Shown here in pieces: positions 8,630-29,984 of a stretch of DNA of 64,000 nucleotides. The DNA lies in contig CAIPYE010000015.1 in the NCBI GenBank assembly GCA_903869265.1, forward strand, positions 434,001-498,000. Reading direction: 5' to 3'. How positions within the stretch are numbered: the first letter of the stretch is position 1; every line of letters starts with the position of its first letter. This DNA comes from an uncultured delta proteobacterium. GTDB taxonomy: Bacteria; Desulfobacterota; Desulfobulbia; Desulfobulbales; Desulfurivibrionaceae. Under the pieces are notes generated by a model. That model was given only the letters and a program-made list of their open reading frames with translations. It was not told where the DNA came from and searched no databases. The position numbers and the translations under genes are program-made.

Positions 8630-9120
8630 TACAACCACAAAGGTTTCCAGTAATTAAGGGGATTCTTGTTCTCCTGCCTGGGTGCCACTGGGGTGCCAAA
8701 AGTTGCTTTTACTGGTAAAAAAAAAGCAAACAAGCGCGTTGCAACTAATTGATTTTTCGTTATTCGTGCTTGCAATAACTAACACGGATTCTGCCTATCG
8801 TGGCTCGAATCCGGACCACAGAAAATCATATTATACCACCAAAACATCATCGCCTCGGCTTCTCGCCACATGATCAACTTGGCAACCCCATTCCTCCCCC
8901 TCTCATATACCCAATTAATATCTCATAACCGCCGCCGTCTCCACTCGACATTGATCTTTTAAAGTCCAGCCGCCGTACGGGGCTACCTATTTTAAATTTG
9001 CAGCACAACCCGATGTCCACTAAATCGAGAGAAGGTCAAGATATAATCTGAATGAGCTTGACATTAAGTTAACAATAAAAATTTATCATTGGCCTCGCGG
9101 AGATAATAAAAGACAACAGG
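8630..9120 (+). other. Left end of the tRNA-associated element, non-coding
   Basis: This 491-base stretch has no gene. It holds a directly repeated GGGTGCCA with an 11-base period (about 8680-8698) followed by AAAAG. The same arrangement precedes the second att copy (10249-10268), and a diverged version (GGTTGCG repeated) is at about 10434-10455. Such sites could be integrase arm sites (inference). At 8787-8820 is a decayed tRNA 3' half. Upstream of the HTH gene, GCTTGACA at 9056-9063 is shared with the second unit and may be a -35 element. Confidence 0.5.
8787..8820 (+). repeat. Decayed tRNA-Gln 3' half, inner copy A
   Basis: ATTCTGCCTATCG followed by TGGCTCGAATCC mirrors the anticodon-to-T-arm part of the tRNA with several substitutions, and the acceptor part is degraded. 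It lies about 200 bases after att copy 1. An equivalent decayed copy lies about 180 bases after att copy 2, so each unit carries an exact and an older degraded site. Confidence 0.65.
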
Positions 9121-9822
9121 TTGACCCAGAAATGGCTTGCAAAAAAGGCTAAAGTTTCAGAGGTAAATTTGAGTAAGGTACTAAGCAGAAAAGCTGGTTG
9201 TTCCGAAAAATGGAGAAAACGGGTCTGTGCTGCTCTCGGAATGACAGAGCAAGAAGTGATTCAGCGTAGCTCGGAAGAATCTGCCATGTTTTTATCTAAT
9301 CGGCAACCAACAACGCCGCCACCAGTTGAGCCAAAAGAAGCCGCAGACATCAAACAAGAAGCACTTTCGGCAGTCACCGCGCTGGCGAACCTAGCCACGA
9401 TAACAGAAGATCAATTAAGGTTTTGGCGCGATCTTTTCGAGTATCTGCCCTCTCCAATATGCGTTATGCGTGAGGGGATTCTGGTTTTCCACAATGCCGC
9501 CCACAGAACAGTATGCTCTGGAGCGACCGTGGGTAGAAAAATCTGCGATACTTGCTCGGCTACGAAAAAAAAGGGCGATCTCCAGTGCCCATCTGAGTGC
9601 GGAGTACGCCTAACACAGGAGACAGGTAGGCCGTCTACGTTCCTTATGCAGATAGAGAACGGGTATTATTGCGGTGATACGAGGATAATAAAGATCAATA
9701 ATACCGAATATCAGACTGTCATTTTTCAGCGGATAGATCAAGCTAAAGCTGGCTGGGTCGGCTACGCCGACTTCTCGTCATCACCTTCATCCTTGAAATT
9801 GTCATCGGAAGCGACATCTTGA
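9121..9822 (+). CDS. HTH regulator with Cys-rich PAS-like domain, 3' end replaced by IS DNA
   Basis: This is an unnamed putative transcription regulator. Residues 1-47 resemble a helix-turn-helix (LTQKWLAKKAKVSEVNLSKV, then SRKAGCSEKWRKRVC). A Pro-rich linker follows, then a PAS-like domain from about residue 100 (FEYLPSPICVMREGILVFHN) with Cys at 142, 145, 156 and 160, which could bind metal or sense redox. Homology to the second copy (10923) continues upstream of the TTG at 9121 (KFIIGLAEIIKDNR), and a stop codon at 9076 blocks a longer frame, so the true start is unclear. The last ~20 residues are encoded by antisense IS200-type DNA, so the native C-terminus is lost. Confidence 0.6.
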   Translation: MTQKWLAKKAKVSEVNLSKVLSRKAGCSEKWRKRVCAALGMTEQEVIQRSSEESAMFLSNRQPTTPPPVEPKEAADIKQEALSAVTALANLATITEDQLRFWRDLFEYLPSPICVMREGILVFHNAAHRTVCSGATVGRKICDTCSATKKKGDLQCPSECGVRLTQETGRPSTFLMQIENGYYCGDTRIIKINNTEYQTVIFQRIDQAKAGWVGYADFSSSPSSLKLSSEATS

Positions 9823-10047
9823 TTATCAATGTATTGAATGATCATCTCATCCGTAACATTGCCGTTGCTGCAACCCAAATAGCCTCGCTTCACCCTGACA
9901 TATTTCCCAGATCATATTCCGGATGCGAAGAGCGACGCTTTCCTCCAACACTTTCTTGCGATATTTCGTTATCCACACCACATGCAGGTGGATAGCAAAT
10001 ACCGTATGCGAGGCATGCCTGTATGTCACGCTGCCAAATCTAGCCAA
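9762..10047 (-). pseudogene. IS200/IS605-type transposase (TnpA) remnant
   Basis: The N-terminal part (from a TTG at 10047) has the HUH single-strand transposase features: YRHASHTVFAIHLHVVWITK and YRKKVLEE, with the His-x-His pair. After about 50 residues the frame breaks. A second frame continues with KRGYLGCSNGNVTDEMIIQY and ends DDEKSA-stop at 9762, which matches the family C-terminus. The middle of the protein, including the usual catalytic Tyr region, is deleted. A GTCGGC-GTA-GCCGAC hairpin near 9755-9770 may be the right-end structure. It interrupts the HTH-PAS gene on the other strand. Confidence 0.8.
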
Positions 10048-10342
10048 GCTACACCCAAGCTGCCACCTGAACGATGGGGGGGATTACCCTCACAAGCATG
10101 GACAATCAACTGGCTGACGCATTGCACTCGCGTACTGGCTGAAGTTCGATGGTAATCAGCAAATAAATTGGGAAAGGTCAACTGCCTGCCAGGCGGAAAA
10201 ATATAAGAGGTTTCCGGGCTTGATACGCTTTAGGGAAAACAAGGCGAAACGGGTGCCATTAGGGTGCCAAAAGGGCAAGAAAATGGCACCCGGTAGTGCT
10301 CTAACTTGTTGTTTTTACGTATTTTGTGTGTAGAAAATCAAC
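10048..10342 (+). other. Right part of the first tRNA-associated unit, non-coding
   Basis: These 295 bases hold no recognisable gene. They include the left end of the IS200-type remnant and the doubled GGGTGCCA site (10249-10268) just before the second att copy. Confidence 0.45.
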
Positions 10343-16382: not shown

Positions 16383-16964
16383 TCATTCCTCATCAGCCAC
16401 CTTGAGATTGTTGATTTTTCTGGCTAATTGACCGAGAATCGCCTGGAGTTCGGCCTGGCTTTCCTTGTAGGGTCCCTCTCCGTCGGTGGTGCAAATTTTT
16501 TGCGCCTGACGCACCGAATCCTGCACGCTGATAATTGTTCCTCGGAAAAATTCAACCATTTGATTAAGTTGCCCTGCCAGGGAAGCGCCTTCGTCTCCGA
16601 AGCGAAGGTTAATCTTTACGGTGAGATCCCCTTTTGCTATCTGCCGGACATCCTGCTCAATTCGATAAAGCGCCCCAGCAATATTTTTCGGAAAAAACAA
16701 GCTGGCTATCGTGCCCACAACCACACTAAAAACAAAAGAAAGGCAGATAACAGGAAAAAGGAAGTCAAGAAAGTTTCTGGCCTTGATATGAAAAAGCAGA
16801 AATGATGCGGTGACCTGCTGATCAGCATAAAAGTAAAATATACCGCTGCTGGTCAGCAAACAAACCAAAAGAATACAGGTCATTCTGCCGATCATGCGCA
16901 GTTGCATGGCACGGTTCACAGAGAAATTCAAAACTTTTCTTTTATAGAATTTTTCCTGAACCAT
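16383..16964 (-). CDS. Membrane HAMP-domain protein without output domain
   Basis: This 193-residue protein has two membrane segments (about residues 25-47 and 66-90) around a short loop. A HAMP linker follows (NIAGALYRIEQDVRQIAKGD, with LTVKINLRFGDE), then a coiled coil ending at KINNLKVADEE. It looks like the front of a chemoreceptor or sensor kinase, but no signalling domain follows, so it may modulate another sensor. AGGAG lies just before the ATG. It sits between the pentaheme cytochrome gene and the cytochrome remnant. Confidence 0.78.
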   Translation of the reverse strand: MVQEKFYKRKVLNFSVNRAMQLRMIGRMTCILLVCLLTSSGIFYFYADQQVTASFLLFHIKARNFLDFLFPVICLSFVFSVVVGTIASLFFPKNIAGALYRIEQDVRQIAKGDLTVKINLRFGDEGASLAGQLNQMVEFFRGTIISVQDSVRQAQKICTTDGEGPYKESQAELQAILGQLARKINNLKVADEE

Positions 16965-17071: not shown

Positions 17072-18085
17072 CTAAAACATCGTACTCTTTGAAGAGCGAT
17101 TAAAGGTGTAATGGCAAGCCACACATAACCTGGTAGTAATCACATCGCGAACCATGGCCTTGCCCTGACCGCCATGCGGTTCATGACAGGTCACGCAGGT
17201 AAGCATTCCGCCTTTGCCGGTCGGCAGATTATCGGGAATACGTGTCTCTTTTTGTTTTGAATATATACGCACCGGGTGAGAAGTTCCCATACGGGACTGC
17301 GGATGGCAAGTATAGCACAAGTCGATCGTGGCATACTCAGAAGTCACAAGCAACGGATGGGTTTCTTTCCCTCGTCTAGAGGTGGCTTGGTCGCCTATCT
17401 TCTTCGTCACTGGCTTAACGTCCAATTGTTGCAAGTTGACGCCTTCCACTTCTTGCAATTCTACCCAGCCAAAATTCTCGGAACGCGACAGCCAATTGAC
17501 CCACACCGCATTTCTCATCCGCTGAAGAGATGAGGCAAGTATGGAATCTGTGGCAAGCTCCCTTGTATCGAGAATTTGTTCATCCGAGGGAGAAGACTTT
17601 TGCAACTCCGCGGGAACAAGCCCAATCCACTTGCTTGCCTGCCGTGTTCCTCCTCCCGGTTTCGGACTGTTGCTCAGGACAATACGGAAACGATACGCAT
17701 TGGACTCCGTCAATCCCGTCAAAACGACCACGTGTTTTGTTTGCAACCCTTCTCTGCTGGCAAAAACCAGCGTTTTCCGCCACATGTTTCCCTGATCGGC
17801 AACTGGCTTACCCGTGCTCGTGGCAGAGACATCCACGTCTTCCTGGTTTCGCCAGTCGGATTCCGGGGCCAGGTGACAGACTATGCACTGACGCTCAAAG
17901 CATGGCCTGTGTATATATAGACTTCCCATGCTCTTTTTGGAGATTTCCATATGGCAACCGATGCACTTATTGTTCAATGCATCTTCATTCAGTATTCGCA
18001 TGGCCGAAGAGCCGCCCACTAGCAGAACAAAAGTACTGCAAAGCAAGGCAGAAATGGTGATCGATTGTCCGACGTTCTTGAACAT
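17072..18085 (-). CDS. Pentaheme c-type cytochrome
   Basis: This is a periplasmic or outer-surface electron carrier. A signal peptide (MFKNVGQSITISALLCSTFV, cut near SSA) precedes five CXXCH motifs: CIGCH (41-45), CIVCH (67-71), then after about 190 residues CYTCH, CVTCH and CVACH. The long middle has beta-rich text (VVVLTGLTESNAYRFRIVLS, NSPKPGGG) suggesting an Ig/fibronectin-like insert between heme groups. Motifs such as CVTCHEPHGG are typical of doubled-CXXCH cytochromes. No named homologue is recognised. The sigma-54 activator gene lies 126 bases upstream, in the same direction. Confidence 0.85.
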   Translation of the reverse strand: MFKNVGQSITISALLCSTFVLLVGGSSAMRILNEDALNNKCIGCHMEISKKSMGSLYIHRPCFERQCIVCHLAPESDWRNQEDVDVSATSTGKPVADQGNMWRKTLVFASREGLQTKHVVVLTGLTESNAYRFRIVLSNSPKPGGGTRQASKWIGLVPAELQKSSPSDEQILDTRELATDSILASSLQRMRNAVWVNWLSRSENFGWVELQEVEGVNLQQLDVKPVTKKIGDQATSRRGKETHPLLVTSEYATIDLCYTCHPQSRMGTSHPVRIYSKQKETRIPDNLPTGKGGMLTCVTCHEPHGGQGKAMVRDVITTRLCVACHYTFNRSSKSTMF

Positions 18086-18211: not shown

Positions 18212-20275
18212 CTACTGTAACTGGCCTATATTCGAATCCGAAGGGACGACAATCCTGTACTCTGCGATTTTCCGGCGCAGGGTGTCTTTTGAAATCCCCA
18301 GTTCCCTGCAGGTCATCATCTTTTTCCAGCGGTTGCGCTTAAGCGAGCAGGTGATGGCGATCTTCTCAATCTCCGTTAGGAGAAGCGGGGTGAAAATTTC
18401 AAAGTCGTTCACGCCATCATCATCCTTTGGGGCAAAAGGCGCCGGCAGATGCTCCGGCCTGATGAGCCCGCCAGGGCAGAGGATGAAGGCGTATTCAATA
18501 ATATTCTGCAGCTCTCGGACATTGCCGGGGTAATCATGATTCATGAGTTGGCGCAGTGCCTCATCAGAGACGCCGCCGATATCCCTGCTCTTTTCGATGT
18601 CCAGTTTTTGCACGAAGTGATCGGTAAGGAGGGGCAAGTCTACCATGCGTTCCCGCAGTGGCGGCAGGGTAATTTTGACCACGTTCAAGCGGTAGAAAAG
18701 ATCGTCACGGAAGGTTCCCGCCTGAACAAAAGCTTCGAGGTCGCGATGGGTCGCGGCAATAATTCGCGCATCCGCTTTCAGGGACTTACTCGAACCCAGG
18801 GGCTCATAGGACTTGTTTTCTAAGACCCGAAGCAATTTGACCTGCATGGCTGGGGAGATGTCACCAATCTCATCAAGGAAGAGGGTGCCGCCTGAAGCCG
18901 CAGCAAAACGGCCTTCCCGGTCTTTTTTTGCATCGGTGAAGGCACCGGCTTTATGACCGAAGAGTTCCGCCTCAAGCAGAGTGTCGGGCAGGGCTCCACA
19001 GTTAACCGCCACAAACGGGCCCTTGCCCCGGTCGCTGATGTCATGCAGGGCGCGGGCCACCAGCTCCTTTCCGGTGCCCGATTCGCCAAGGATTAGGACA
19101 TTGCTGGCGCTCCTGGCGATCTGGGGCAGAATGTCGAAAATTTTTCGCATGGCAGGACTTTTGCTTAGAATATCCCCCACGGAGTTGCGACGAAAGAGGC
19201 GTTGCTGCAGATAATTAACCACACGCAGATCGCGAAAGGTTTCCACCCCGCCGATCAGGATACCGTTGTTGTCGTACATCGGGGCGGCGCAGATGCTGAC
19301 CGGAATATTTTTCTCTTCGCTGTTCTGGATATGTATGCATCTGTTGGTTTCCGGCTTGCCTGTGCACATGCTGTGCGCAATGGCGCAGGTCTCACCACAG
19401 ATGCTGGCGTGGAAGATATCGCTACAGAATTTCCCCATGGCCTCGGTCGCCGGCACTCCGGTGATTTTTTCCGCCGCTCGGTTGAACGAGGTGATACGCC
19501 AGCGGGTGTCGACGGTAAAAACTCCATCGGCGATGTTGTCCAGAATCAAGGATCTGTCGAGCAGGGCATTAACGTCCCTGAAAACCTGGACACCGCCAGC
19601 GACCTTTCCCTTGGAATCAAGCAACGGCGCCGCGCTGATTGTCGCGGCAATGCGTTTGCCGCTGGCGTGGGTGATGAAAATAGATTTGTTTTCCAGGGGT
19701 TTGCCGTTGGTGATGCTTTGCGCCAGGACACACTCTTCACCGCAAGCGCTTGATTTGAAAACCTCCCGGCAGGGCTTGCCGATGGCGTCTTCCTTGCTCC
19801 AGCCCGTGAGTTTCTCCGCCGCCAGGTTAAATGAAGTGATCCGCCATTTGGAGTCGACACTGAAGACCCCGTCCACGATGCTGTCCAGAATGAACTTGAA
19901 TGGCTCCAGCATTTCTGAGGCGCCGGCCTGAATTATGAGGGAGCGGGAGATCGTTGAGACCGGCACGCACCAGTCTGTCTTGTATTCAAAAGAAAGCCCG
20001 CAGAGCACCTTTTTCTCGTCGATGGGGGTGACCCATTGGATCTGTGCGCGGACTAGCTGATCGCTCAGGGCTGCATCCTCCGGCCATAGTTGGACAATCA
20101 TATTTGGAGAAAGGGGGATGGGCGGGCTCGTCTCAATTTGGATGCCATGGGGATGGACGTCTCTGCTCACCGCAGGCCATACCTTGTGGGAGGGGTTTTC
20201 GTGCATGCGGAACATGAGGCTGAGCGGTGCTCGAACATGGGCACGGCGGTCGTCGCGGCGGCTTTCGGTTTTCAT
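18212..20275 (-). CDS. Sigma-54-dependent activator with PilZ and two PAS domains
   Basis: Domain order: an N-terminal PilZ-like domain (RRAHVRAPLSLMF, RDVHPHGIQIE; the usual D-x-S-x-x-G is altered); two PAS domains, each starting FKFILDSIVDGVFSVD or SLILDNIADGVFTVD and each with Cys-rich CREVFKSSACGEECVLAQS-like text; an AAA+ domain with Walker A GESGTGKE, Walker B LFLDEIGD and GAFTDA in place of the sigma-54 contact motif GAFTGA; and a Fis-type HTH. It is expected to activate sigma-54 promoters in response to redox or small ligands and perhaps c-di-GMP. The start is ATG 20275 (run of G before it); the frame opens at 20383. Confidence 0.9.
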   Translation of the reverse strand: MKTESRRDDRRAHVRAPLSLMFRMHENPSHKVWPAVSRDVHPHGIQIETSPPIPLSPNMIVQLWPEDAALSDQLVRAQIQWVTPIDEKKVLCGLSFEYKTDWCVPVSTISRSLIIQAGASEMLEPFKFILDSIVDGVFSVDSKWRITSFNLAAEKLTGWSKEDAIGKPCREVFKSSACGEECVLAQSITNGKPLENKSIFITHASGKRIAATISAAPLLDSKGKVAGGVQVFRDVNALLDRSLILDNIADGVFTVDTRWRITSFNRAAEKITGVPATEAMGKFCSDIFHASICGETCAIAHSMCTGKPETNRCIHIQNSEEKNIPVSICAAPMYDNNGILIGGVETFRDLRVVNYLQQRLFRRNSVGDILSKSPAMRKIFDILPQIARSASNVLILGESGTGKELVARALHDISDRGKGPFVAVNCGALPDTLLEAELFGHKAGAFTDAKKDREGRFAAASGGTLFLDEIGDISPAMQVKLLRVLENKSYEPLGSSKSLKADARIIAATHRDLEAFVQAGTFRDDLFYRLNVVKITLPPLRERMVDLPLLTDHFVQKLDIEKSRDIGGVSDEALRQLMNHDYPGNVRELQNIIEYAFILCPGGLIRPEHLPAPFAPKDDDGVNDFEIFTPLLLTEIEKIAITCSLKRNRWKKMMTCRELGISKDTLRRKIAEYRIVVPSDSNIGQLQ

Positions 20276-20949
20276 GATTCCCCCCCAGTTCTTCTGTCTT
20301 GAAAAAACAAAAAGAGCAGTTCTGTACTTTCCCTCGCTACTCCGTTGCTTCGGTTGCACTCCAAGTCTTTTGCCCTGCGGCATGTGACAAAGAGGGCAAA
20401 ATTATCCGTATTGATTTAATGCAATATTCGATCCAACTATTGCATCCAGCGTGGAAGGGGGAAGGATGATCAGGCATTAACAACAGCAAGCAGCTTGAAC
20501 CACGATGGTTTACTCGGGTTGAAAGTGCGCCTATCTGCACTTATTTTTCATCTAGACCGGAAGAAATTTGGGGATTTCACCATGAATAGTTGGGAATAAT
20601 CCCAATCTAATCTCGGTCATTTAAGAGGATGGCGTTGGTCTCCAAGGCGTGACAGGCAGGTTGCCGCAGAACGTCGCATCGGAGTTATCCAGTCAGTTTT
20701 GTTTCTTTCGCATCCAGTGGCGTGGCCGGCATGCTTGTCCGGTGGTCTTTCACCGTGAACGACTTCCTTTCAGCTCGCAGGTCCGGCTAAAGTGAGTGGG
20801 ATCGAAGAATCTGCACATATCTATTCTCCGCTTCAGCGACACGACCAGCTTGGTGTAGGCTGACGTCTGCCTAGCGAAACTCTGGAATGGTTATATTTCT
20901 GCTGGGCAATATGATAGCAAGATAAACATAAGTGAAAATCTGACATAGG
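20276..20949 (+). other. 674-base gap containing repeat copy 1
   Basis: No gene is supported. 20410-20634 is the 220 bp repeat. 20640-20900 may hold transposon debris, but translated frames are too broken to name. A terminator for the TPR-methyltransferase gene was not expected here, because that gene reads away from its stop at 20950 towards the activator gene. Confidence 0.4.
20410..20634 (+). repeat. 220 bp non-coding repeat, copy 1
   Basis: It aligns with the minus strand of 11439-11655. In copy 1 TTGGGGATT pairs with AATCCCAA near the end, at the place where copy 2 has an 11 bp hairpin of different sequence. The conserved pairing with changed bases hints at a structured RNA or an element end. 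No protein frame is shared by the two copies. Confidence 0.6.
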
Positions 20950-22665
20950 CTATTTCATTCCCTCAAAGATGAACCATGGGGTGATTCGATTATGAGCGGC
21001 AGAAATCATTGCAACTTGAACCGGGAGAACGTCGATTGGTGAAGGGAAGACAAATACGCAATGCTGCCAACCAGAGGCCGTATTTTTAACTGAAGGATGA
21101 TTTTCAAAGACAACCGTGTCGTCCATTTCCAGCCTTATCCATTGAATTATCCCGCAACAACGGCCCGCTTTTCGCACAGGCACCTCGATAATCTTTCGCT
21201 CGGCAGAGGGAAACCGATCGGTTTTAACAAAATCAAAGAAGAATGCACCGATATCATCGCTCAACAATTCGATATTGAGATCGTTCCTGGCGACATATTG
21301 TTTCGATGGAACAATCGCGTTGAATTTCCGCAAGTCGAAACCGTACACCTCGTCAACCCGGACATTGGACATAATGTCGACACCACCGACCAGGGCGAAC
21401 TGAATGGAGCCTCGAGCTGGGATGATGCGGGCTCCCGGTTTCAACAATCGCTGTTTGGCATCCTCTATGCTGGACAGGACGCCTTCGCCGAGAAATTCAC
21501 TCGAAAGAATCTCCGAAACGAGCAGGTCGGCCCGATCGCCCATATCTTTCCCGACCTCCAGCTTTGTCGACATTTTGGAGACCACCGTAACCGGCGGAGT
21601 GAAACCATTGTCCCCAACAATGTTCCGGGCCATTTCGGCAATCTGGGGAACGGCCTCGCAGGTCGTTACCTGCCGCGCACCGAGCTTGGCGGCCATCATT
21701 GCAAGCAGCCCGGAACCTGTCCCGATTTCCAAAACATGGGTATCAGGCGTAATCGCAGCCTTTAAGGCAGCGAAATAGGCATCATTCCGCAACCTATTAT
21801 TCATCATGGGCACATGCCACATGGGAGTGAGTTCGCCGAGCGCCACATTCAGATCCTCATGCGCTTGGACCAACGAAGGATCGATGTCAAGGGCTTTACG
21901 GTAACTGGCTATGGCCTCTCCCATTCGCTTAAGTTTCAGGAGAACAGAGCCAAGTCCTCTCTGCGCTTGAACATAGTCCGGCTTGAGCAGGATGGCCTGA
22001 CGGTAGCTTGCTTCCGCTTCAACAAGGCGTCCTAATTCGGTGAGAACATTGCCGAGATTTTGGTGCGCCTCGGCAAAATTCGGCTTGAGCAATAAAGCCT
22101 GCCGATAGCTTGCTTCTGCCTCATCGAGACGTCCGAGATCCTTGAGGAGATTGCCAAGATTGTTGTGTGTCTCAATAAAATCCGGCATAAGGACTAGCGC
22201 ATGGCGATAGCTTTTTTCGGCCTCATCAAGGTATCCAAGATTCATCAGGGAAATACCGAGATTGCTGTGCGCCTGAACATAATCCGGCTTGAGCGCCAGA
22301 GCCTGCAGAAAGCTGGCCTTTGCCTCCTCAAAGCGTCCGAGCTCCAGAAGAGCACAGCCGAGGTTTTGATGTGCCTGGGCATCATTGGGGGCCAGCTTTA
22401 CATTGTTCGACAAAGGCTCCAGAGCATCTGAATGTCTTCCTTGTAAGAGCCGGAGGATGCCAAGAGCCTTCCAACCCATACTATGACCAGGCCAGCGCCG
22501 GATGGCCTCACTGGCCTTCTGCTCCAACAGCTCTAAGTGCCCCGCGTTAAGCAATGACCCCATCTCATTGATAACGCTAGCTGGTGGCTCCATAGCTTTT
22601 TTATTCCCTTGTAAAGAAGAGGCTGATCGATGGGCAGATGGAATGGCCTTTCTATGCTTTTTCAT
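20950..22665 (-). CDS. TPR protein fused to PRMT-like SAM methyltransferase
   Basis: Residues 33-280 form about seven TPR repeats (for example AEASYRQALLLKPNFAEAHQ). Residues 282-571 form a class I methyltransferase: SAM motif VLEIGTGSGLLAMMAAKLGA (311-330), the acidic post-motif CEAVPQIAEMA, and a PRMT-style double-E segment SEILSSEFLGEGVL (384-397) followed by a C-terminal beta-rich domain. The EGVLSS and GARIIPA text recalls PRMT7/PRMT9, and human PRMT9 also carries TPRs. Protein arginine methylation is therefore the leading guess, with targets unknown. No signal peptide. The ATG is preceded by a weak ribosome site. Confidence 0.8.
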   Translation of the reverse strand: MKKHRKAIPSAHRSASSLQGNKKAMEPPASVINEMGSLLNAGHLELLEQKASEAIRRWPGHSMGWKALGILRLLQGRHSDALEPLSNNVKLAPNDAQAHQNLGCALLELGRFEEAKASFLQALALKPDYVQAHSNLGISLMNLGYLDEAEKSYRHALVLMPDFIETHNNLGNLLKDLGRLDEAEASYRQALLLKPNFAEAHQNLGNVLTELGRLVEAEASYRQAILLKPDYVQAQRGLGSVLLKLKRMGEAIASYRKALDIDPSLVQAHEDLNVALGELTPMWHVPMMNNRLRNDAYFAALKAAITPDTHVLEIGTGSGLLAMMAAKLGARQVTTCEAVPQIAEMARNIVGDNGFTPPVTVVSKMSTKLEVGKDMGDRADLLVSEILSSEFLGEGVLSSIEDAKQRLLKPGARIIPARGSIQFALVGGVDIMSNVRVDEVYGFDLRKFNAIVPSKQYVARNDLNIELLSDDIGAFFFDFVKTDRFPSAERKIIEVPVRKAGRCCGIIQWIRLEMDDTVVFENHPSVKNTASGWQHCVFVFPSPIDVLPVQVAMISAAHNRITPWFIFEGMK

Positions 22666-22981: not shown

Positions 22982-23914
22982 TTAACGGGTAATGGTCACG
23001 TCTTCAACAATAACTGCATACTTGTACCCGGCGCCGAAATCCTTGTCCGCGGCAAGCACGCCTTCCACCGTAACGATATCACCTTTTTCAGCTTTGTCCG
23101 CCGAGGTCACCACCAAGTCATGGCTGTTTTTCGCAGGATCACCGGTGCCATCCTGCAGATGCAGCCAGTTTTTCCCCATGATCTTGGGAGAAAACTTAAC
23201 CACCTGACCCTTGATTTTTACTTTTTTACCATTCAAACTGGCGGCTTTGGCAAAGATATCCGCAACGGTGAAGCCATTCTCGCCGCTGGCCTTGGCAATC
23301 TTCATATCCAGCAGAGGCACCACAGCCTTACCGCTGCCAGGAGTCGTTTCATTAACAGCTGCATGCGGAGAGGAAGCCGCGGGGGAGGATGCTTCACCTT
23401 TCTTCTGCATGCTTGCATCTATTGCAACATCACCAGTTGCTGCGGCAGGTGCAACAGCAGCGTTGCCACCATGGGGAGCATTCTCATGCTCCGCTTTTTT
23501 GCCTTCCAGACCCGTGGCAAAAACAATCTCTTTAAAAGTGCGATTGAGGGTCTTACTGGAGAAATTCTGCATGATCTGCCCTTCAGTAATGGCACATGCC
23601 TCGCCCACCGTAACCTTGGTTTCGGGTACCGCCACCCAGGCGTCACCCTTTTCGCCTGCAAGAAGAACATAGGTGAAACCGCCGCCCTTGAGCACCTCTT
23701 TCGCCTTGCCTTGAATGCGTCCGACAGCGTTGGCGGCAGGCTGTGCAACTCTGCTTTCCGGCGCTACGGCTCCAGGCTCGACCCCAGGTACAGCATTAGG
23801 CACAGCCGCCTGATCAGTCGCCGTGGTCTCCGGCTTTTTGCTATCACAGGCAACAAGCGCCAACAAACACACCCCACACATCAAAAAATTCCGCCACTTC
23901 ATAGACTCGCCCAT
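22982..23914 (-). CDS. Lipoprotein with two OB-fold (NrfJ-like) domains
   Basis: The signal MGESMKWRNFLMCGVCLLAL with VAC gives a lipidated Cys. Domain 1 has AKEVLKGGGFTYVLLAGEKG, WVAVPE and NFSSKTLNRTFKEIVFATGL, a pattern of small OB-fold proteins found beside cytochrome genes and related to NrfJ. An Ala/Pro-rich linker follows. Domain 2 has LNGKKVKIKGQVVKFSPKIM, GKNWLHLQDGTG and GDIVTVEGVL, another OB fold of the same kind. It is the last gene of the operon. A role in heme or cytochrome handling is inferred from its neighbours only. Confidence 0.82.
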   Translation of the reverse strand: MGESMKWRNFLMCGVCLLALVACDSKKPETTATDQAAVPNAVPGVEPGAVAPESRVAQPAANAVGRIQGKAKEVLKGGGFTYVLLAGEKGDAWVAVPETKVTVGEACAITEGQIMQNFSSKTLNRTFKEIVFATGLEGKKAEHENAPHGGNAAVAPAAATGDVAIDASMQKKGEASSPAASSPHAAVNETTPGSGKAVVPLLDMKIAKASGENGFTVADIFAKAASLNGKKVKIKGQVVKFSPKIMGKNWLHLQDGTGDPAKNSHDLVVTSADKAEKGDIVTVEGVLAADKDFGAGYKYAVIVEDVTITR

Positions 23915-24029: not shown

Positions 24030-24926
24030 CTACCGGTAAATCTGCACCCTGTTGTTATTACGGTCCGCCACAAAAGCATAACCGCTCCCGTTTAAGCATA
24101 TGCCCACCGGATAATTGAGTAGCCCTTCAACCCACCCCCGGCCTGCTTTCTGCCCTTTGAACGATCCATCCTGGCCGAGGAGGATGATCTTCCCGCCGTT
24201 CTGGTCGGTGACATACAGAAGACCCGTATTGTCCATGGTAATATAAGTGGGAAAACCCATCTGTTCCTTCATGCTCTGCGTGAGCGGCGAAAAGCTTTTG
24301 GCATCCTTGCCGGCCGAAAAGATCTGCGAATTGGCACTGTCAACAAGAAAGATAGTGCCGCCGCTGTCCACCGCCAGATCGGCAAAAGACCCGAACTCCT
24401 TGGGAAATGCCACCTGACGAAGAAACTCACCCTGCGGACCCAATACAACCATCCGACCGCCATAGATATCAAGGACATACACATTGTCTTTTTTATCCAG
24501 CTTGAAGCTTCGCGGGACGACGGTGTCACCCTGCGGCACGTTTTTCATCTCAAAATTTGCCAGAAACTGGCCATCAGCACCCAATCGCACGATACGGCGG
24601 TTTTTTCCGCTTAAAGCAAGGATTTCCCCTTTGGAGTCGATCTGAACTCGGATCGGACTCGGCAACTGCGACACCTTGCTTTGCGAAACGTACTTCACCT
24701 CGTTTCCCGCAAGCGAATAGCGCACAAGACGATCGTTGCCCGTATCGGCCACCACGACGGAAGTTGCGGTACAAGCCACATCCTCCGGGGAGAGAAGCCC
24801 GTTGCCGTCACCATCGGTATAGATGGAAACCACCGGCTGAAACATGATCGCCTGCGCACAAAGCGCCATGCTGGCCGAAGAAAAAATCACCGCGAAAACA
24901 AAAGCTGTTCCCAGTAGTTTACGCAT
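24030..24926 (-). CDS. Secreted NHL-repeat beta-propeller protein
   Basis: A signal peptide (MRKLLGTAFVFAVIFSSASM, ALCAQA) precedes NHL-type repeats such as VVVADTGNDRLVRYSLAGNE, DNVYVLDIYGGRMVVLGPQG, GTIFLVDSANSQIFSAG and GYAFVADRNNNRVQIY. These fold into a beta-propeller. There is no lipobox or CXXCH. Start ATG 24926 with GGGAGG upstream; the longer frame from 25013 overlaps the cytochrome gene. It starts 4 bases after the stop of the 16-heme cytochrome. Propellers of this type accompany nanowire cytochromes in Geobacter-like bacteria. Confidence 0.88.
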   Translation of the reverse strand: MRKLLGTAFVFAVIFSSASMALCAQAIMFQPVVSIYTDGDGNGLLSPEDVACTATSVVVADTGNDRLVRYSLAGNEVKYVSQSKVSQLPSPIRVQIDSKGEILALSGKNRRIVRLGADGQFLANFEMKNVPQGDTVVPRSFKLDKKDNVYVLDIYGGRMVVLGPQGEFLRQVAFPKEFGSFADLAVDSGGTIFLVDSANSQIFSAGKDAKSFSPLTQSMKEQMGFPTYITMDNTGLLYVTDQNGGKIILLGQDGSFKGQKAGRGWVEGLLNYPVGICLNGSGYAFVADRNNNRVQIYR

Positions 24927-24930
24927 GTGC

Positions 24931-26208
24931 TTACCTCCCGATTTTACTGTGGCAGTTGGTGCACATCTCTGTCTGCGACGGAGCATGCAGCATTTTGTCA
25001 TAGGGTGTCCCATGGGAACGATGACAGCTGAGACAATTCACCGTGAGGTTTTTGTTCCGCGGATCCTTGTATTTAGGGCCAATAGGATGGGTAGAATGAT
25101 GCTCCCAGTCGTGACAGCTACCACACACCTCAATAGATGTGGGCTTGTTCATCAGTAAAACCTGATCTGCAGCATGGGGCGAATGGCAGGCGGTACAATC
25201 CCCATCCTTCACAGGAGAATGCTTATGCTCAACGTTTTTCAACCAGTTGACAGTGTCAGCATGGCACTGTCCGCAGACCTCGACCATGGGTTTCTTGAGA
25301 AGACCCTTCTGATTCGAGGCATGGGGCGTATGACAGTTCAGGCAGCCGGCCCGGTCGAGCAACGGCCAGTGCAATCTGCCCTTCAAAAGCGCTTCATTCA
25401 CCATGTTGTTATGGCACCCGACACAAAGCTTGTAGCCGTCGGTCTTCACCTTGAACGGCGCCCCAGCAGTGGGCTCTTCGTGACACTGCTTACAGTTCCC
25501 TTTACCAAATGGCACATGCACCTTGTCGTAGAAAAGTCCCTTTTGGTTCGATCCGTGGGGATCATGGCAGGAGGTGCAGCGTGCGGTGGCAACCTGGTAT
25601 CCGCCATGCATTTTCACAAAGGTCATCTTGCTGCTGTCATGACACTTCAGACAAAGCCCGGGGACATTTTCCTTGAGGAGGGTTTTCCCAGATGCGGAGG
25701 CATGCGGGCTGTGGCAACTAACACAGCCTTTTTCCACCGGCGAATGCTTGACCTTGACGGCAGCTATCCGACTTCCCATTTCTTTATGACAGTCAAAACA
25801 CAAGGCATTGCCGCCTTTGTAGAGATTGAATTTATTGGCGGCAGCATGGGGATCATGGCATTTCACGCAGGTCCCTTCCGCCACAGGCTTATGGATACTT
25901 GCCGGTTTTTCAGGAATAATTTTGGCATGACAGCGCTCGCAGAGATCCTTGACTTCGGCGGCAAGAAGTTTTGCGTGCGAGGCGGCATGCGGGTTGTGAC
26001 ACCCGGTACAGTCCCAGTTTTTCAAGGGAGTATGAATGAAGGGCTTTTTCATCACCCCAGCAAAGCTGTCATGACAACTCAGACAGTTTTTCCCCTTTGC
26101 CCCATCTTTCAGATTGAATTTGTTATCCGCAGCATGAGCAACGGACAGCATCATCAAACAGAGAAGCAAGGCCAAGGGCGGCAAGATAAAATCAGATCGC
26201 AAACGCAT
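24931..26208 (-). CDS. 16-heme c-type cytochrome (doubled CXXCH)
   Basis: After a signal peptide ending AHAADNKF, the protein has 16 CXXCH motifs, alternating between CXXCHNPH/CXXCHDPH forms and plain CXXCH, the doubled-CXXCH pattern. Most hemes have a nearby upstream His for bis-His ligation. It is predicted to sit in the periplasm or at the outer membrane as a long electron conduit. GTG 26217 or ATG 26208 can start; AAAGGG favours the ATG. It starts just after the stop of the 26-heme gene, so translation is likely coupled. Confidence 0.93.
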   Translation of the reverse strand: MRLRSDFILPPLALLLCLMMLSVAHAADNKFNLKDGAKGKNCLSCHDSFAGVMKKPFIHTPLKNWDCTGCHNPHAASHAKLLAAEVKDLCERCHAKIIPEKPASIHKPVAEGTCVKCHDPHAAANKFNLYKGGNALCFDCHKEMGSRIAAVKVKHSPVEKGCVSCHSPHASASGKTLLKENVPGLCLKCHDSSKMTFVKMHGGYQVATARCTSCHDPHGSNQKGLFYDKVHVPFGKGNCKQCHEEPTAGAPFKVKTDGYKLCVGCHNNMVNEALLKGRLHWPLLDRAGCLNCHTPHASNQKGLLKKPMVEVCGQCHADTVNWLKNVEHKHSPVKDGDCTACHSPHAADQVLLMNKPTSIEVCGSCHDWEHHSTHPIGPKYKDPRNKNLTVNCLSCHRSHGTPYDKMLHAPSQTEMCTNCHSKIGR

Positions 26209-26221
26209 GGTCTTCACCCTT

Positions 26222-28207
26222 TTATTTTTTCTTTACGATGTGGCATCCCCCGCAGTCTCTCGCGGCAAAAGGAGGATGAACGAAATCATTAAAAAACTTC
26301 GGATCTTTGGAAGCGTGGGGATTATGACAACCCACGCAATTCATCGCGGCCGGATCGATATTGACATGGGCCGAGGCAAAAGCTCCATCCTTCAGATCAT
26401 GACATTCCCCGCACAACCCAGGAACCGATTTGACCAACAAAGACCTATTCATGGAAGAATGCGGCTGATGGCAACTTCCGCAATCGCTCTTGGCCGGGGA
26501 ATGCACTTGCCCTTTGGCCATTTTTTCCTTGAGGCTCTTGTGACAAGCCAGGCAGAGATCCGGACTCTCCACCTTGAGAAGCTTCTTCAGCTTCGACCGA
26601 TGGGGATTATGACAGGAGGTGCACTGGTCCGAAACGACAGGCGAATGCTTGCTCTTGTCTTTCTTAATGTTCTGCATGAATTTGTCATGGCAGGTCAGGC
26701 AGAGTTTCCCCTGCTTCTCTGCGGTCATCCCGACAAAATCACTACCATGAGGATTGTGACAGGTAAGGCAATCGCCGTCAGTGAAGGGAACATGGTCATT
26801 TTCGCCGGGCGCCGCTTTGAGAAGGCTGCCATGGCATTGCGCACAGAGCTTTACACCAGTCTCCTTGAGCAATTTTTTCTGTTCGCCGCCATGCGCCGTA
26901 TGGCAGGCCTGACAACTGCCGTCACGCACCGGGCCATGGGTATGGGACTTGACAAACTCATCCCGTTTTTCCGCATGACAGGTATAGCAAACAACATCCA
27001 TTCTCTCCTTGAACATCTTCGGAAAATTGGAGCCATGGGGATTGTGGCATGTAGAACAATTCTCGTCCACAAAGGGCGAATGAGCAAATTTTGCCTTATC
27101 CGCCTCCTTGGTTTTCGCATGACAGTTAAAGCAAAGTTCACGGTCCCCGGCAAGGAGCAGACGCTTGTTTTTCGACGCATGGGGGGCATGGCAGGAAAGA
27201 CATCCCTTTTCCCCCACCATGGGCGGATGGGCAAAGCTCACCACCACATCCTTGTCGCTATGACAGGTCACACAAAGCTTGCTTCCCCCTTGCAAGAGCA
27301 GTTTGGGATTGTCAGAAACATGAGGGTTATGACAGGAAAGACATTTCCCTGCCTTGAAGGGTGCATGCTCAATGGTCCCGTCATTCTTCAAGCTCTTCGC
27401 ATCATGGCATTGGCCGCACATTTCGCCGTCCTTCATCTGTGTTTTGAAGGGCTCTGCAGACCCAGCCGCATCATGACAACCATCACACTGCTGGGTTGCG
27501 ACCGGATTGTGAACACTGGCCTTGAGAAGCTTTGCCTGGGAAGAGGAGTGTGGGTTATGGCAGACCACGCAGGTCTTGCTCTTCTCCACCGGATAGCCGC
27601 CATGCGCCTTTTTGAACCCACTCCCCCCCGCCTCATGACAACCCAGACAGAGCGGGACCTCCTTTTTGATCAAGAGGTTCGCTTCGTCTGCACCATGGGT
27701 CGAATGGCAGGCCTGGCAACCAACGCTTTTTAATACCGCATGCACGAACTTCTTTTCGAATTTTTCCCTGGCATGACACTTGTAGCACACCCCGCTTCCC
27801 TCCTCGCTCAGCAGGTGGCTTGCATTGCTGGCATGGGGGTTGTGGCAGGTTGCACAGGTGCCTTTTTTCAGAACCGTGTGCACATGGGGCTTGGTCATCC
27901 CGAGCTTTTCCTGGCTGTGACAATCATAGCAAATCTGGTTACCCTGTTTCTTCAGGATAAGCTTGGGCACAACCCCGTGTTTGAGATGACAATCCTCACA
28001 TTTTTTTTCTTTGACCACGGCATGTACATTTTTCATGGAAAGATACTGCCCGGCAAATTTCGTGTGGCAATCAAGGCAGTCCTTCTTGGCGAACCCCATC
28101 TGTCCGATGGCGTGGGCCGGTTGCCCGGCAAAGAGAAACCAACCCCCGCCCAAAAACAACACTAGTGCCAAAACCATTCGTTTTCCGCTTGAATATCTCA
28201 TTCGCAT
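26222..28207 (-). CDS. 26-heme c-type cytochrome (doubled CXXCH)
   Basis: I count 26 CXXCH motifs in about 661 residues, from CLDCH near residue 40 to CGGCH at the C-terminus, in alternating CXXCHNPH and plain CXXCH pairs about 20-25 residues apart. An N-terminal signal peptide (MVLALVLFLGGGWFLFAGQP then AHA) directs export. Such repeats form extended heme chains in electron conduits to the cell exterior. Internal repeats such as SHNPH-like SCHNPHGS suggest growth by duplication. Antisense frames over this gene are shadows. Confidence 0.93.
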   Translation of the reverse strand: MRMRYSSGKRMVLALVLFLGGGWFLFAGQPAHAIGQMGFAKKDCLDCHTKFAGQYLSMKNVHAVVKEKKCEDCHLKHGVVPKLILKKQGNQICYDCHSQEKLGMTKPHVHTVLKKGTCATCHNPHASNASHLLSEEGSGVCYKCHAREKFEKKFVHAVLKSVGCQACHSTHGADEANLLIKKEVPLCLGCHEAGGSGFKKAHGGYPVEKSKTCVVCHNPHSSSQAKLLKASVHNPVATQQCDGCHDAAGSAEPFKTQMKDGEMCGQCHDAKSLKNDGTIEHAPFKAGKCLSCHNPHVSDNPKLLLQGGSKLCVTCHSDKDVVVSFAHPPMVGEKGCLSCHAPHASKNKRLLLAGDRELCFNCHAKTKEADKAKFAHSPFVDENCSTCHNPHGSNFPKMFKERMDVVCYTCHAEKRDEFVKSHTHGPVRDGSCQACHTAHGGEQKKLLKETGVKLCAQCHGSLLKAAPGENDHVPFTDGDCLTCHNPHGSDFVGMTAEKQGKLCLTCHDKFMQNIKKDKSKHSPVVSDQCTSCHNPHRSKLKKLLKVESPDLCLACHKSLKEKMAKGQVHSPAKSDCGSCHQPHSSMNRSLLVKSVPGLCGECHDLKDGAFASAHVNIDPAAMNCVGCHNPHASKDPKFFNDFVHPPFAARDCGGCHIVKKK

Positions 28208-28322
28208 CGTTAACCCCAAGGCTACAATTATGGAGAGAGAAACCGTGATTCTATCTTAAAAAAATCGAGTGGGGAACTTCACCGCTTGACTTCACATGCA
28301 GTTATTTCTTCACGTCCAGAGC

Positions 28323-29984
28323 CTAAAGCCTGTCCACATAGGTCGTCACAGGGTAAACCTCCCGCAACTTCTTGGTCATTTCGTCAAAATCCTGCTGCAG
28401 TTTGACCTTGAAAATCTTTTCTCTGATCGCATCATGTACCTCGGCAAGCTCCGGAGTCGTCCCCACAACCATATCCTCCACCTGCAGCACATAGAAGTGG
28501 CCGTTTTCATCAGCATACAGCTTCATGTCGCCATTTCCGGCTCCGGCCAACTGCTTTTGCAATTGCTCCGGCAGCATGGTTACCATCAACAATTTCCCGT
28601 CAAAAGGAAGAACTCCTTCACTATTTTCATCCACTTGACCCGCTTCATTGGTGGCGAGCCATTTGAAATCCGTACCTTTCCGCAGTTTGGCAAGGGCGTT
28701 TTCCGCATCACCCTTTGCGGAAAAAACCATGCTTTTGAGCCGAACCATGGACGGGCTGACAAACTCCTCCGGATGCTCCTTGTAATATTGACTGATCTCG
28801 TCTTCTTCGATTTTCATGTTAGGAATAATCACCTTGGTCATGAAAGCGCCGAACAGCATGGATTTCCGAAACTCCTCAACAGAATTCTTGAACACCGCCG
28901 TTTTGTCTATCCCCTGCGCCAAAGCTTCTTTGGCCATAACCCTGTTGGCCAGAAGACTGTCAAGAGCTGCGACCTTATTCTTGTTCAACTTGCCTGTGCC
29001 GACCAGCTTCTCCGTGCCATGAAAAATTTTCTTCTTCAATTCAGCAGCCAGCACACCCACGGTCACCGGCTCTTCTCCCTTAATCGTGGCCAAAACGCGC
29101 TTGTCATCGAGCATGTTTTCAATGTCCGGTTCCTTGCCCTCATAGTTGATGCTCTTCAGCAGTTTCTCATCGACCTTTGTGTACTTGGCTAGAAGACCTC
29201 TGACGTACTTAACCTGTGCGGCGCGCTGCTGATCCTTTTTGAATTCTTCCTCGATCTTTTTCCTGGTTGCAGGATCTTCCGGATAACGCAGATCCTTGAG
29301 TTTCATCAGCACAAAGCCGCCTGGAATCGGAACGATGGGGCTCAGCTCACCCTTTTTCATCTTGACAAGCGTTGCCCCGATCTCTTGCAACATCTCTGTT
29401 GGCTTATGTGCCTCGGGCTCTAAATTGCCCTCCGCCTTTTTCTCGCCAATCGCCTTGGCGGCGACCATAGTAAAATCTTTGCCTGCCTTGAGTTCCGCAA
29501 CCGCTGCTTTAGCGTCCTCTTCCTTGTTGAACTTCAGCGACTGAAGCACGTACTGCGTGATCACTTTCTTATAGAAGCTATCCACGGCCTTTTTGTCGGG
29601 CTGCACATCCTTGCCCACCTTTTCCAGCAGGAGCTGACGCATCCCCTGCCGCGAATAAGCGTTGATCTGCTCCTGGATTTCCGGCAGATCCCCTAAGCCG
29701 ATATTTTCGGCCTCCAACAGGGCAAGTCGAATGTCGATCAATCGTTTCAGGGGGGCATCATAATCAATCTTCCCTGTCTTCTTGAGGGAATCCTCTCCTC
29801 CACCATGGCCATGCAGGGAAGAAAGTGCCTCGTTGAACTCTTCCATGAAAATGGGAGTTTCTTTGACAGTGGCGATGACCTCTTTGCCGTCAATCACTGG
29901 CAACTTGGTGCCGGACTCGGCGGCAAAAACACTTCCACCCAAAAAAGCAGCAAGGATCCCAATACACACGATACTTTTTCTCAT
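28323..29984 (-). CDS. Periplasmic peptidyl-prolyl isomerase, two parvulin domains
   Basis: A SurA/PpiC/PpiD-like protein with signal peptide MRKSIVCIGILAAFLGGSVF (cut after AA). Two copies of the SurA N-terminal plus parvulin arrangement are visible: the first around ITQYVLQSLKFNKEEDAKAA to IPGGFVLMKLKDLRYPED, the second around FVSPSMVRLKSMVFSAKGDA to NGHFYVLQVEDMV. It probably helps fold the barrel or the Pro-rich cytochromes. Parvulins occur beside OmcE/OmcS-type genes in other species. It lies 115 bases upstream of the 26-heme gene. Confidence 0.88.
   Translation of the reverse strand: MRKSIVCIGILAAFLGGSVFAAESGTKLPVIDGKEVIATVKETPIFMEEFNEALSSLHGHGGGEDSLKKTGKIDYDAPLKRLIDIRLALLEAENIGLGDLPEIQEQINAYSRQGMRQLLLEKVGKDVQPDKKAVDSFYKKVITQYVLQSLKFNKEEDAKAAVAELKAGKDFTMVAAKAIGEKKAEGNLEPEAHKPTEMLQEIGATLVKMKKGELSPIVPIPGGFVLMKLKDLRYPEDPATRKKIEEEFKKDQQRAAQVKYVRGLLAKYTKVDEKLLKSINYEGKEPDIENMLDDKRVLATIKGEEPVTVGVLAAELKKKIFHGTEKLVGTGKLNKNKVAALDSLLANRVMAKEALAQGIDKTAVFKNSVEEFRKSMLFGAFMTKVIIPNMKIEEDEISQYYKEHPEEFVSPSMVRLKSMVFSAKGDAENALAKLRKGTDFKWLATNEAGQVDENSEGVLPFDGKLLMVTMLPEQLQKQLAGAGNGDMKLYADENGHFYVLQVEDMVVGTTPELAEVHDAIREKIFKVKLQQDFDEMTKKLREVYPVTTYVDRL

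Follow-up and report, generated by a model that had tools for sequence, protein, structure and literature searches.

The window, a stretch of 64,000 nucleotides from the 2.8 Mb genome of an uncultured delta proteobacterium, contains a series of minus-strand genes in which a reading frame for a predicted TPR-containing protein-arginine methyltransferase (TPR-PRMT) is found together with multihaem cytochrome genes (Table 1). The coordinates given for this frame in the first-pass annotation are exact, and the strand, which was absent there, is the minus strand; translation from its ATG start yields a product of 571 aa. The frame is not a chance one, as relatives are encoded at seven loci and the catalytic domain of its product matches the PRMT7 of Trypanosoma brucei with an E-value of 2.8e-35. 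Six of the relatives recovered in one scan cover all or almost all of the catalytic domain (61-80% identity), and the seventh ends after 62 residues (84% identity). By eye the protein lacks a signal sequence, suggesting a cytoplasmic localization. An array of TPRs occupies the N-terminal half, followed by a class I methyltransferase and a strand-rich C-terminal part (residues 281-571). The GC content of the gene (0.48-0.54 in 1-kb windows) lies inside the range of its surroundings (0.46-0.56), and base composition thus shows no sign of recent transfer, while a promoter and terminator scan returned about as many sites as shuffled sequences (2 versus 2.6 and 3 versus 2.6).

Table 1. Genes and protein features at the TPR-PRMT locus (window coordinates)
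Feature	Coordinates	Strand	Evidence and counterparts
Membrane protein (by eye), no Pfam match	16383..16964	-	counterparts L009 63%, L122 47%, L011 44%
Cytochrome, 5 CXXCH, doubled CXXCH domain	17072..18085	-	counterparts L009, L122
PAS / sigma-54 activator / Fis-type regulator, next gene downstream	18212..20383	-	Pfam
TPR-PRMT gene	20950..22665	-	571 aa; same-architecture relatives in L009, L011-L014, L046
PRMT catalytic module, residues 281-571 (Rossmann part, then barrel part)	20953..21825	-	PDB sequence search, tree, alignment
THW-loop equivalent S-G-W, residues 531-533	21067..21075	-	58-row alignment
Double-E loop SEILSSEFLGEG, residues 384-395, with E385 and E394	21481..21516	-	58-row alignment
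Motif I VLEIGTGSGLL, residues 311-321, putative SAM-binding site	21703..21735	-	alignment
N-terminal helix segment WHxxMMNNxxRNxxY, residues 283-297, with M287 and R293	21775..21819	-	58-row alignment
TPR superhelix, residues 29-279, seven repeats and cap helix	21829..22581	-	Pfam, AlphaFold model
Lipoprotein (by eye), no Pfam match; upstream neighbour	22982..23914	-	
NHL-repeat protein	24030..25013	-	PF01436, 62.8 bits; counterparts L009, L015, L122
Multihaem cytochrome, 16 CXXCH	24931..26217	-	counterparts L009, L015, L122 (51%)
Multihaem cytochrome, 26 CXXCH	26222..28219	-	counterparts L009, L015, L122 (49-51%)
PPIC-type peptidyl-prolyl isomerase	28323..29984	-	PF13145, 93.2 bits; counterparts L009, L015, L122

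Gene neighbourhood and distribution

The first-pass annotation had placed the gene directly behind an electron-transfer operon. Cytochrome genes do lie upstream on the same strand, but the 5-CXXCH cytochrome gene is located downstream, and as such the TPR-PRMT gene stands among cytochrome genes rather than behind them. Its start codon is situated 316 bases past the end (22982) of the next same-strand upstream gene, which encodes the lipoprotein; this protein has no counterpart in L009-L015 or L122, and its C-terminal part appears OB-fold-like by eye only. BLAST counterparts indicate that three further loci, L009, L015 and L122, carry the operon of the window with the TPR-PRMT gene at varying places, and the two large cytochromes are fused in L009. 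The counterpart of the predicted membrane protein gene is located directly upstream of the TPR-PRMT gene in L009 and L122, and nearby in L011. The NHL gene is found in 2/17 genomes of the source genus, the source genome included.

Other arrangements are observed in L010, L011, L012 and L013, each with an ORF containing at least four CXXCH motifs within 4 kb. A multihaem ORF is thus found at most 4 kb from all eight copies of the core group (the closest relatives of the window protein and that protein itself) outside the Alphaproteobacteria, the largest gap being 3,517 bases. As a control, 20 stretches totalling 400 kb were drawn from the source genome alone; among their ORFs with 200 aa or more, 5/144 had a multihaem ORF within this distance. 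The eight cytochrome-linked copies are not all independent, since those of the window, L009, L015 and L122 share one operon. Multihaem ORFs are absent from the 16.9 kb of L014, the alphaproteobacterial core copy, and from all 19 pieces (18 genomes) that represent the other clades.

In L010, L122 and L013, TPR-PRMT is immediately followed downstream by a TPR-GT41 (OGT-like) gene, while in L136 GT41 genes flank it on both sides. In L013 (7161-16635) a row of TPR-fused proteins is encoded, namely TPR-PRMT, TPR-GT41 and a TPR protein with B12-binding and radical SAM domains, together with a further TPR protein that is GT41-like by eye only. At L141 (6824-13112) a PRMT-like gene (8989-10083) is located between asparagine-synthase and PqqD genes, with a sulfotransferase and an HPr-kinase-like gene also present. 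This locus resembles a lasso-peptide-type RiPP cluster, and may direct the synthesis of a methylarginine peptide.

The view that arginine methyltransferases are rare in bacteria, put forward in the first-pass annotation, holds within the source family, where a PRMT-type match is found in 1/27 genomes (652 bits; all others at most 33.2 bits), but not within the class of the alphaproteobacterial relative L014, where 47/385 genomes match at E-values up to 1e-30. In the source phylum, 9/395 genomes match at E-values up to 1e-12: two are core-type, one (G239) scores 219 bits and six score 64-113 bits. Matches were also obtained in 23/398 genomes of the phylum of L014, eleven of them with at least 178 bits. 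Relatives are present in 9/72,556 plasmid records, while no matches were found in 50,697 phage records, and 41 pattern hits among viral contigs included no relatives. TPR fusions make up many of the copies that were read; some others are short and, by eye, contain no more than two repeats. Two of the plasmid copies form part of gene clusters, L058:4256-9474 (Pantoea) and L060:5917-9974 (Methylobacterium), in which the PRMT-like gene adjoins genes annotated as encoding an iron-containing redox enzyme, a Rieske protein and an ATP-grasp protein; the clusters may produce a metabolite that derives from arginine and bears an N-oxidised group. No description of bacterial TPR-PRMTs was found among the titles and abstract beginnings of the open-licence PMC literature. 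One lead, PMC4683255, was rejected, as it deals, in the text available, with a bacterial OGT system and its methyltransferase wording concerns CARM1.

Catalytic module and its phylogenetic position

Residues 281-571 were compared by phmmer against 177,635 PDB sequences, which returned 78 matches at E-values up to 1, and the best 60 of these 78 are all PRMTs. The highest-ranking are the PRMT7 proteins of T. brucei (2.8e-35), Caenorhabditis elegans (1.4e-29) and mouse (1.9e-29), followed by PRMT9 (1.2e-22). The T. brucei match spans residues 3-244 of the 291-residue module, and residues 50-342 of the C. elegans protein align with module residues 13-286, including the barrel part. The barrel assignment rests on this alignment, together with predicted strands, because the catalytic domain is poorly modelled (mean pLDDT 50.1), with low confidence in this part; among the 385 Foldseek matches of such a model the best 50 are all PRMTs, but with TM scores of only about 0.35.

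The residues expected of a PRMT are largely in place, as counted in a 58-row alignment over the 46 bacterial rows of the PRMT7/9 clade and eight eukaryotic rows. The two peptides on which the first-pass annotation had based its comparison, SEILSSEFLGEGVL and EDAKQRLLKPGARIIPA, correspond to residues 384-397 and 401-417, respectively. The glutamates of the double-E loop are nine residues apart and align with those of PRMT1, 2, 7 and 9; E385 is conserved in 46/46 bacterial rows and E394 in 40/46, with proline in five and glutamine in one. The GxG of motif I is present and E337 constitutes the post-I acidic residue. In the N-terminal helix, R293 is found in 46/46 bacterial rows and M287 in 40/46 (isoleucine in six), while the equivalent arginine occurs in 8/8 eukaryotic rows and the methionine in seven, the C. 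elegans row starting later. W533 of the THW loop is conserved in 45/46 bacterial rows. The histidine position of this loop holds histidine in 23/46 rows, glycine in the window protein, cysteine in PRMT9 and glutamine in T. brucei PRMT7. The five sequences with proline in place of the second double-E glutamate (L073, L102, L112, L116 and L119) form a TPR-PRMT clade of their own, whose activity may differ on account of this replacement.

For phylogenetic analysis, 50 of the 74 extracted bacterial rows were combined with eight eukaryotic stretches, five of them PRMT7 or PRMT9, the 24 remaining bacterial rows being truncated, interrupted, near-duplicate or very divergent. In the IQ-TREE phylogeny, PRMT7, PRMT9 and 46 bacterial rows form a 51-row clade (100/99) apart from PRMT1 and PRMT2. 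Within this clade PRMT9 splits first, the remaining 49 rows grouping together at 95/85, and PRMT7 falls among the bacterial rows, where it is weakly placed. The window protein belongs to a bacterial clade of 27 rows (100/97) and, within it, to an eight-row core (96/88) in which L014, from an alphaproteobacterial MAG, branches deepest. From this position it can be suggested that these bacteria probably acquired the TPR-PRMT gene from a source of alphaproteobacterial type. An earlier 47-row tree, containing 39 of the then 46 bacterial rows, likewise recovered the PRMT7/9 clade (97/89), with PRMT7 in two places. AU tests under the model applied reject a grouping of the core with PRMT9 (p 1e-7; log-likelihood 51 lower), but not one of PRMT7 with PRMT9 (p 0.286). 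Orthology of the window protein to PRMT9 is ruled out by this rejection and by its single catalytic module.

The likeness to PRMT7 and PRMT9 that the first-pass annotation had perceived in the double-E loop and the text following it is thus borne out by the PDB search, the catalytic residues and the tree, and the identification of the window protein as a putative PRMT of the PRMT7/9 kind is supported. A further prokaryote genome encodes a protein (L086:1396-2433) with the loop SEWMGHCLFYE, which is closest to eukaryotic PRMT1 (PDB E-value 1e-39) and falls outside the PRMT7/9 clade; its prokaryotic origin is putative, contamination being possible.

TPR array and its junction with the catalytic module

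An AlphaFold model predicts 15 helices over residues 29-279, arranged as seven helix pairs and a cap helix, in agreement with the estimate of about seven TPRs in the first-pass annotation and with a Pfam TPR_1 score of 148 bits. Block means of pLDDT are 88-98 over most of the TPR helices and drop to 51-79 near the end. Asparagines are spaced 34 residues apart in four consecutive repeats (N101, N135, N169 and N203), resembling the asparagine ladder carried by the TPRs of OGT. The full-length model finds its top fold match in the TPR domain of OGT (1w3b; E-value 1.3e-15), with bovine PRMT9 at rank 13 (1.1e-13); as the models were built from seven related sequences, these fold matches are taken as supporting only.

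The similarity to animal PRMT9, which also has N-terminal TPRs, was proposed from the domain order and extends to the register of the junction. Residues 74-262 of bovine PRMT9 (8rbk) align with residues 221-408 of the window protein, from the TPRs over the linker into the catalytic core, and only one gap of one residue is needed; L072 gives a similar alignment. From the proline of the last repeat to the tryptophan of the 'WH' the distance is 20 residues, a spacing shared by bovine PRMT9 and most of the bacterial relatives. To test the register, the 66 residues preceding the 'WH' were turned into an ungapped profile from 54/74 bacterial rows (the other 20 having no such WH or a shorter N-terminus), of which 36 were retained at less than 60% mutual identity, with PRMT9 left out. 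On this profile PRMT9 scores +30.6 bits at zero shift and -21.8 at the best other shift (-17 to +10), and none of 10,000 shuffles reaches +30.6 bits (best 2.1). For the 22-residue linker alone, zero shift is again best (10.2 bits) and every other shift is negative. The junction between TPRs and catalytic module is therefore co-linear in the bacterial proteins and bovine PRMT9. Common descent of the TPR-PRMT fusion would be the simplest reading of these sequence comparisons, a structural constraint acting on independent fusions being a less simple explanation for the shared register.

Exchange of TPR arrays between neighbouring genes was also considered. It is ruled out for L122, where the TPRs share 39% identity with those of the GT41 neighbour and 64% with those of the window protein. 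For L137 an exchange with the neighbour appears possible from sequence identity, the L072 TPRs sharing 56% with the neighbour and 42% with the window protein.

Alternative explanations, proposed function and known systems

A best profile match to a non-PRMT methyltransferase had been named in the first-pass annotation as the outcome that would speak against a PRMT, and literally such a match is what Pfam returns: the window protein scores 36.9 bits to PrmA (cut-off 22) and 17.4 bits to PRMT_C (below the cut-off of 27), and Pfam and NCBIfam rank PrmA and CpaM first. Accordingly, one candidate identity is that of the ribosomal L11 methyltransferase PrmA, the name under which four plasmid relatives are annotated, or of some other class I methyltransferase. 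Genuine PRMTs, however, behave in the same manner, with PrmA the top match of T. brucei PRMT7 (48.2 bits; PRMT_C 26.1, below 27) and of module 1 of human PRMT9 (32.9 bits; PRMT_C 19.9, below 27). The Pfam best match can therefore not separate PRMT from non-PRMT here, and the L11 methyltransferase name of the plasmid relatives looks like a gap in the libraries. As the NCBIfam PrmA equivalog TIGR00406 moreover scores 33.9 bits against a cut-off of 183.15, we consider this explanation hardly credible. Somewhat less remote, but still very improbable, is the view that the PRMT fold is inactive or moonlights, serving as a scaffold for cytochrome assembly while the TPR part does the work. The loss of the THW histidine would fit such a role, and TPR proteins are common adaptors; against it, E385, E394, the motif I glycines and R293 are invariant in seven aligned rows, and mean column identity is higher in the catalytic domain (81%) than over the whole protein (60% and 69% in two full-length alignments).

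An improbable, though more substantial, alternative is a small-molecule guanidino methyltransferase whose substrate would be arginine in free form or some metabolite akin to it. The model for this is SznE/StzE from the streptozotocin pathway, a bacterial arginine methyltransferase described in the available text of PMC11705231 as an arginine-guanidino methyltransferase that works with SznF. The annotated companions of the plasmid-borne L058 and L060 genes, whose products belong to the same PRMT7/9 clade, are in keeping with this, with PF14518 confirmed for L058 only. L058, L060 and L083, however, form a separate clade (99/92) and keep the THW histidine; the catalytic part is preceded by just 21 residues in L058 and 43 in L060, while the window copy carries a seven-TPR array. 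Furthermore, none of the eight neighbouring proteins encoded at 16.4-30 kb of the window (six scanned with Pfam and two counted as cytochromes) is a biosynthetic enzyme or SznF-like. That bacteria recently acquired PRMT9 from an animal, which would account for the common TPR-linker-catalytic architecture, has a negligible probability given the single module of the bacterial protein, the rejected grouping of the core with PRMT9 and the number and diversity of bacterial relatives.

We regard as probable, taken as a whole, a cytoplasmic enzyme of the PRMT7/PRMT9 kind with an OGT-like TPR substrate reader, a cytochrome-linked substrate and an alphaproteobacterial-type source. Such a single-module protein-arginine N-methyltransferase would bind SAM at motif I and, as the conserved residues suggest, would hold the guanidinium of the substrate arginine between E385 and E394 for methylation. 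The OGT-like seven-TPR superhelix, with its run of asparagines, may bind extended protein substrates and would feed them to the active site past the linker, whose fixed length is seen in the alignments. The association with cytochrome genes points to a substrate made with, or controlling, multihaem-cytochrome systems, and through these a tie to electron transfer may be envisaged. The two large cytochromes of the operon are arginine-poor (12 arginines in 665 aa and 10 in 428, with 0 and 2 RG or GR pairs), and as such a partner protein or the regulator is as likely a substrate; no RG-rich protein was found among eight operon proteins. The YKRK at the start of the predicted membrane protein was considered as a substrate hint and is not taken as evidence, basic N-termini of this kind being common.

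A bolder reading, which is doubtful but deserves mention, is that of a bacterial invention, whereby PRMT9 would derive from a bacterial TPR-PRMT and PRMT7 from a relative that had shed its TPRs, and the enzyme of the bacteria around this window, which in some of them stands beside an OGT-like TPR glycosyltransferase, would methylate arginines of extracellular electron transfer proteins before their export.

PRMTs are usually described as eukaryotic enzymes. The PRMT fold, the TPRs of PRMT9 and bacterial arginine-guanidino methyltransferases such as SznE are already known; members of the PRMT7/9 group in bacteria are in part annotated as ribosomal L11 methyltransferases, and arginine methylation of this kind may be an ancient trait of bacteria and not of eukaryotes alone. 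A bacterial family with a PRMT7/9 core and the TPR-linker architecture of PRMT9 offers a testable origin for PRMT9, provides models with one module for enzymes whose study has otherwise relied on tandem proteins, and gives reason to seek methylarginine in multihaem-cytochrome systems.

Among known systems, MidA/NDUFAF7 belongs to a methyltransferase family different from PRMT. The likeness is that of arginine methylation tied to an electron-transfer complex, which for NDUFAF7 is complex I according to the available text of PMC3829151. OGT, SPINDLY and the bacterial GT41 proteins share with the window protein a TPR superhelix before the catalytic domain, and GT41 genes adjoin TPR-PRMT in several loci, but their catalytic domain is a glycosyltransferase. 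SznE/StzE are PRMT-like and can be likened to the window protein by description only, differing in their free-arginine substrate and biosynthetic cluster. T. brucei PRMT7 (4m36) shares the single PRMT module, provides the best PDB sequence match and has the THW histidine replaced (by glutamine), but lacks room for seven TPRs, since only 35-70 residues precede the match. PRMT9 (human 7rbq/6pdm, bovine 8rbk) resembles the window protein in the TPRs before its first PRMT module, the length and register of the linker, the WHxxMxND/NxxRN segment, the double-E loop and the replaced THW histidine (cysteine in PRMT9); it differs in possessing a second PRMT-like module, the bacterial protein having a single one, and the two are not sisters in the tree.
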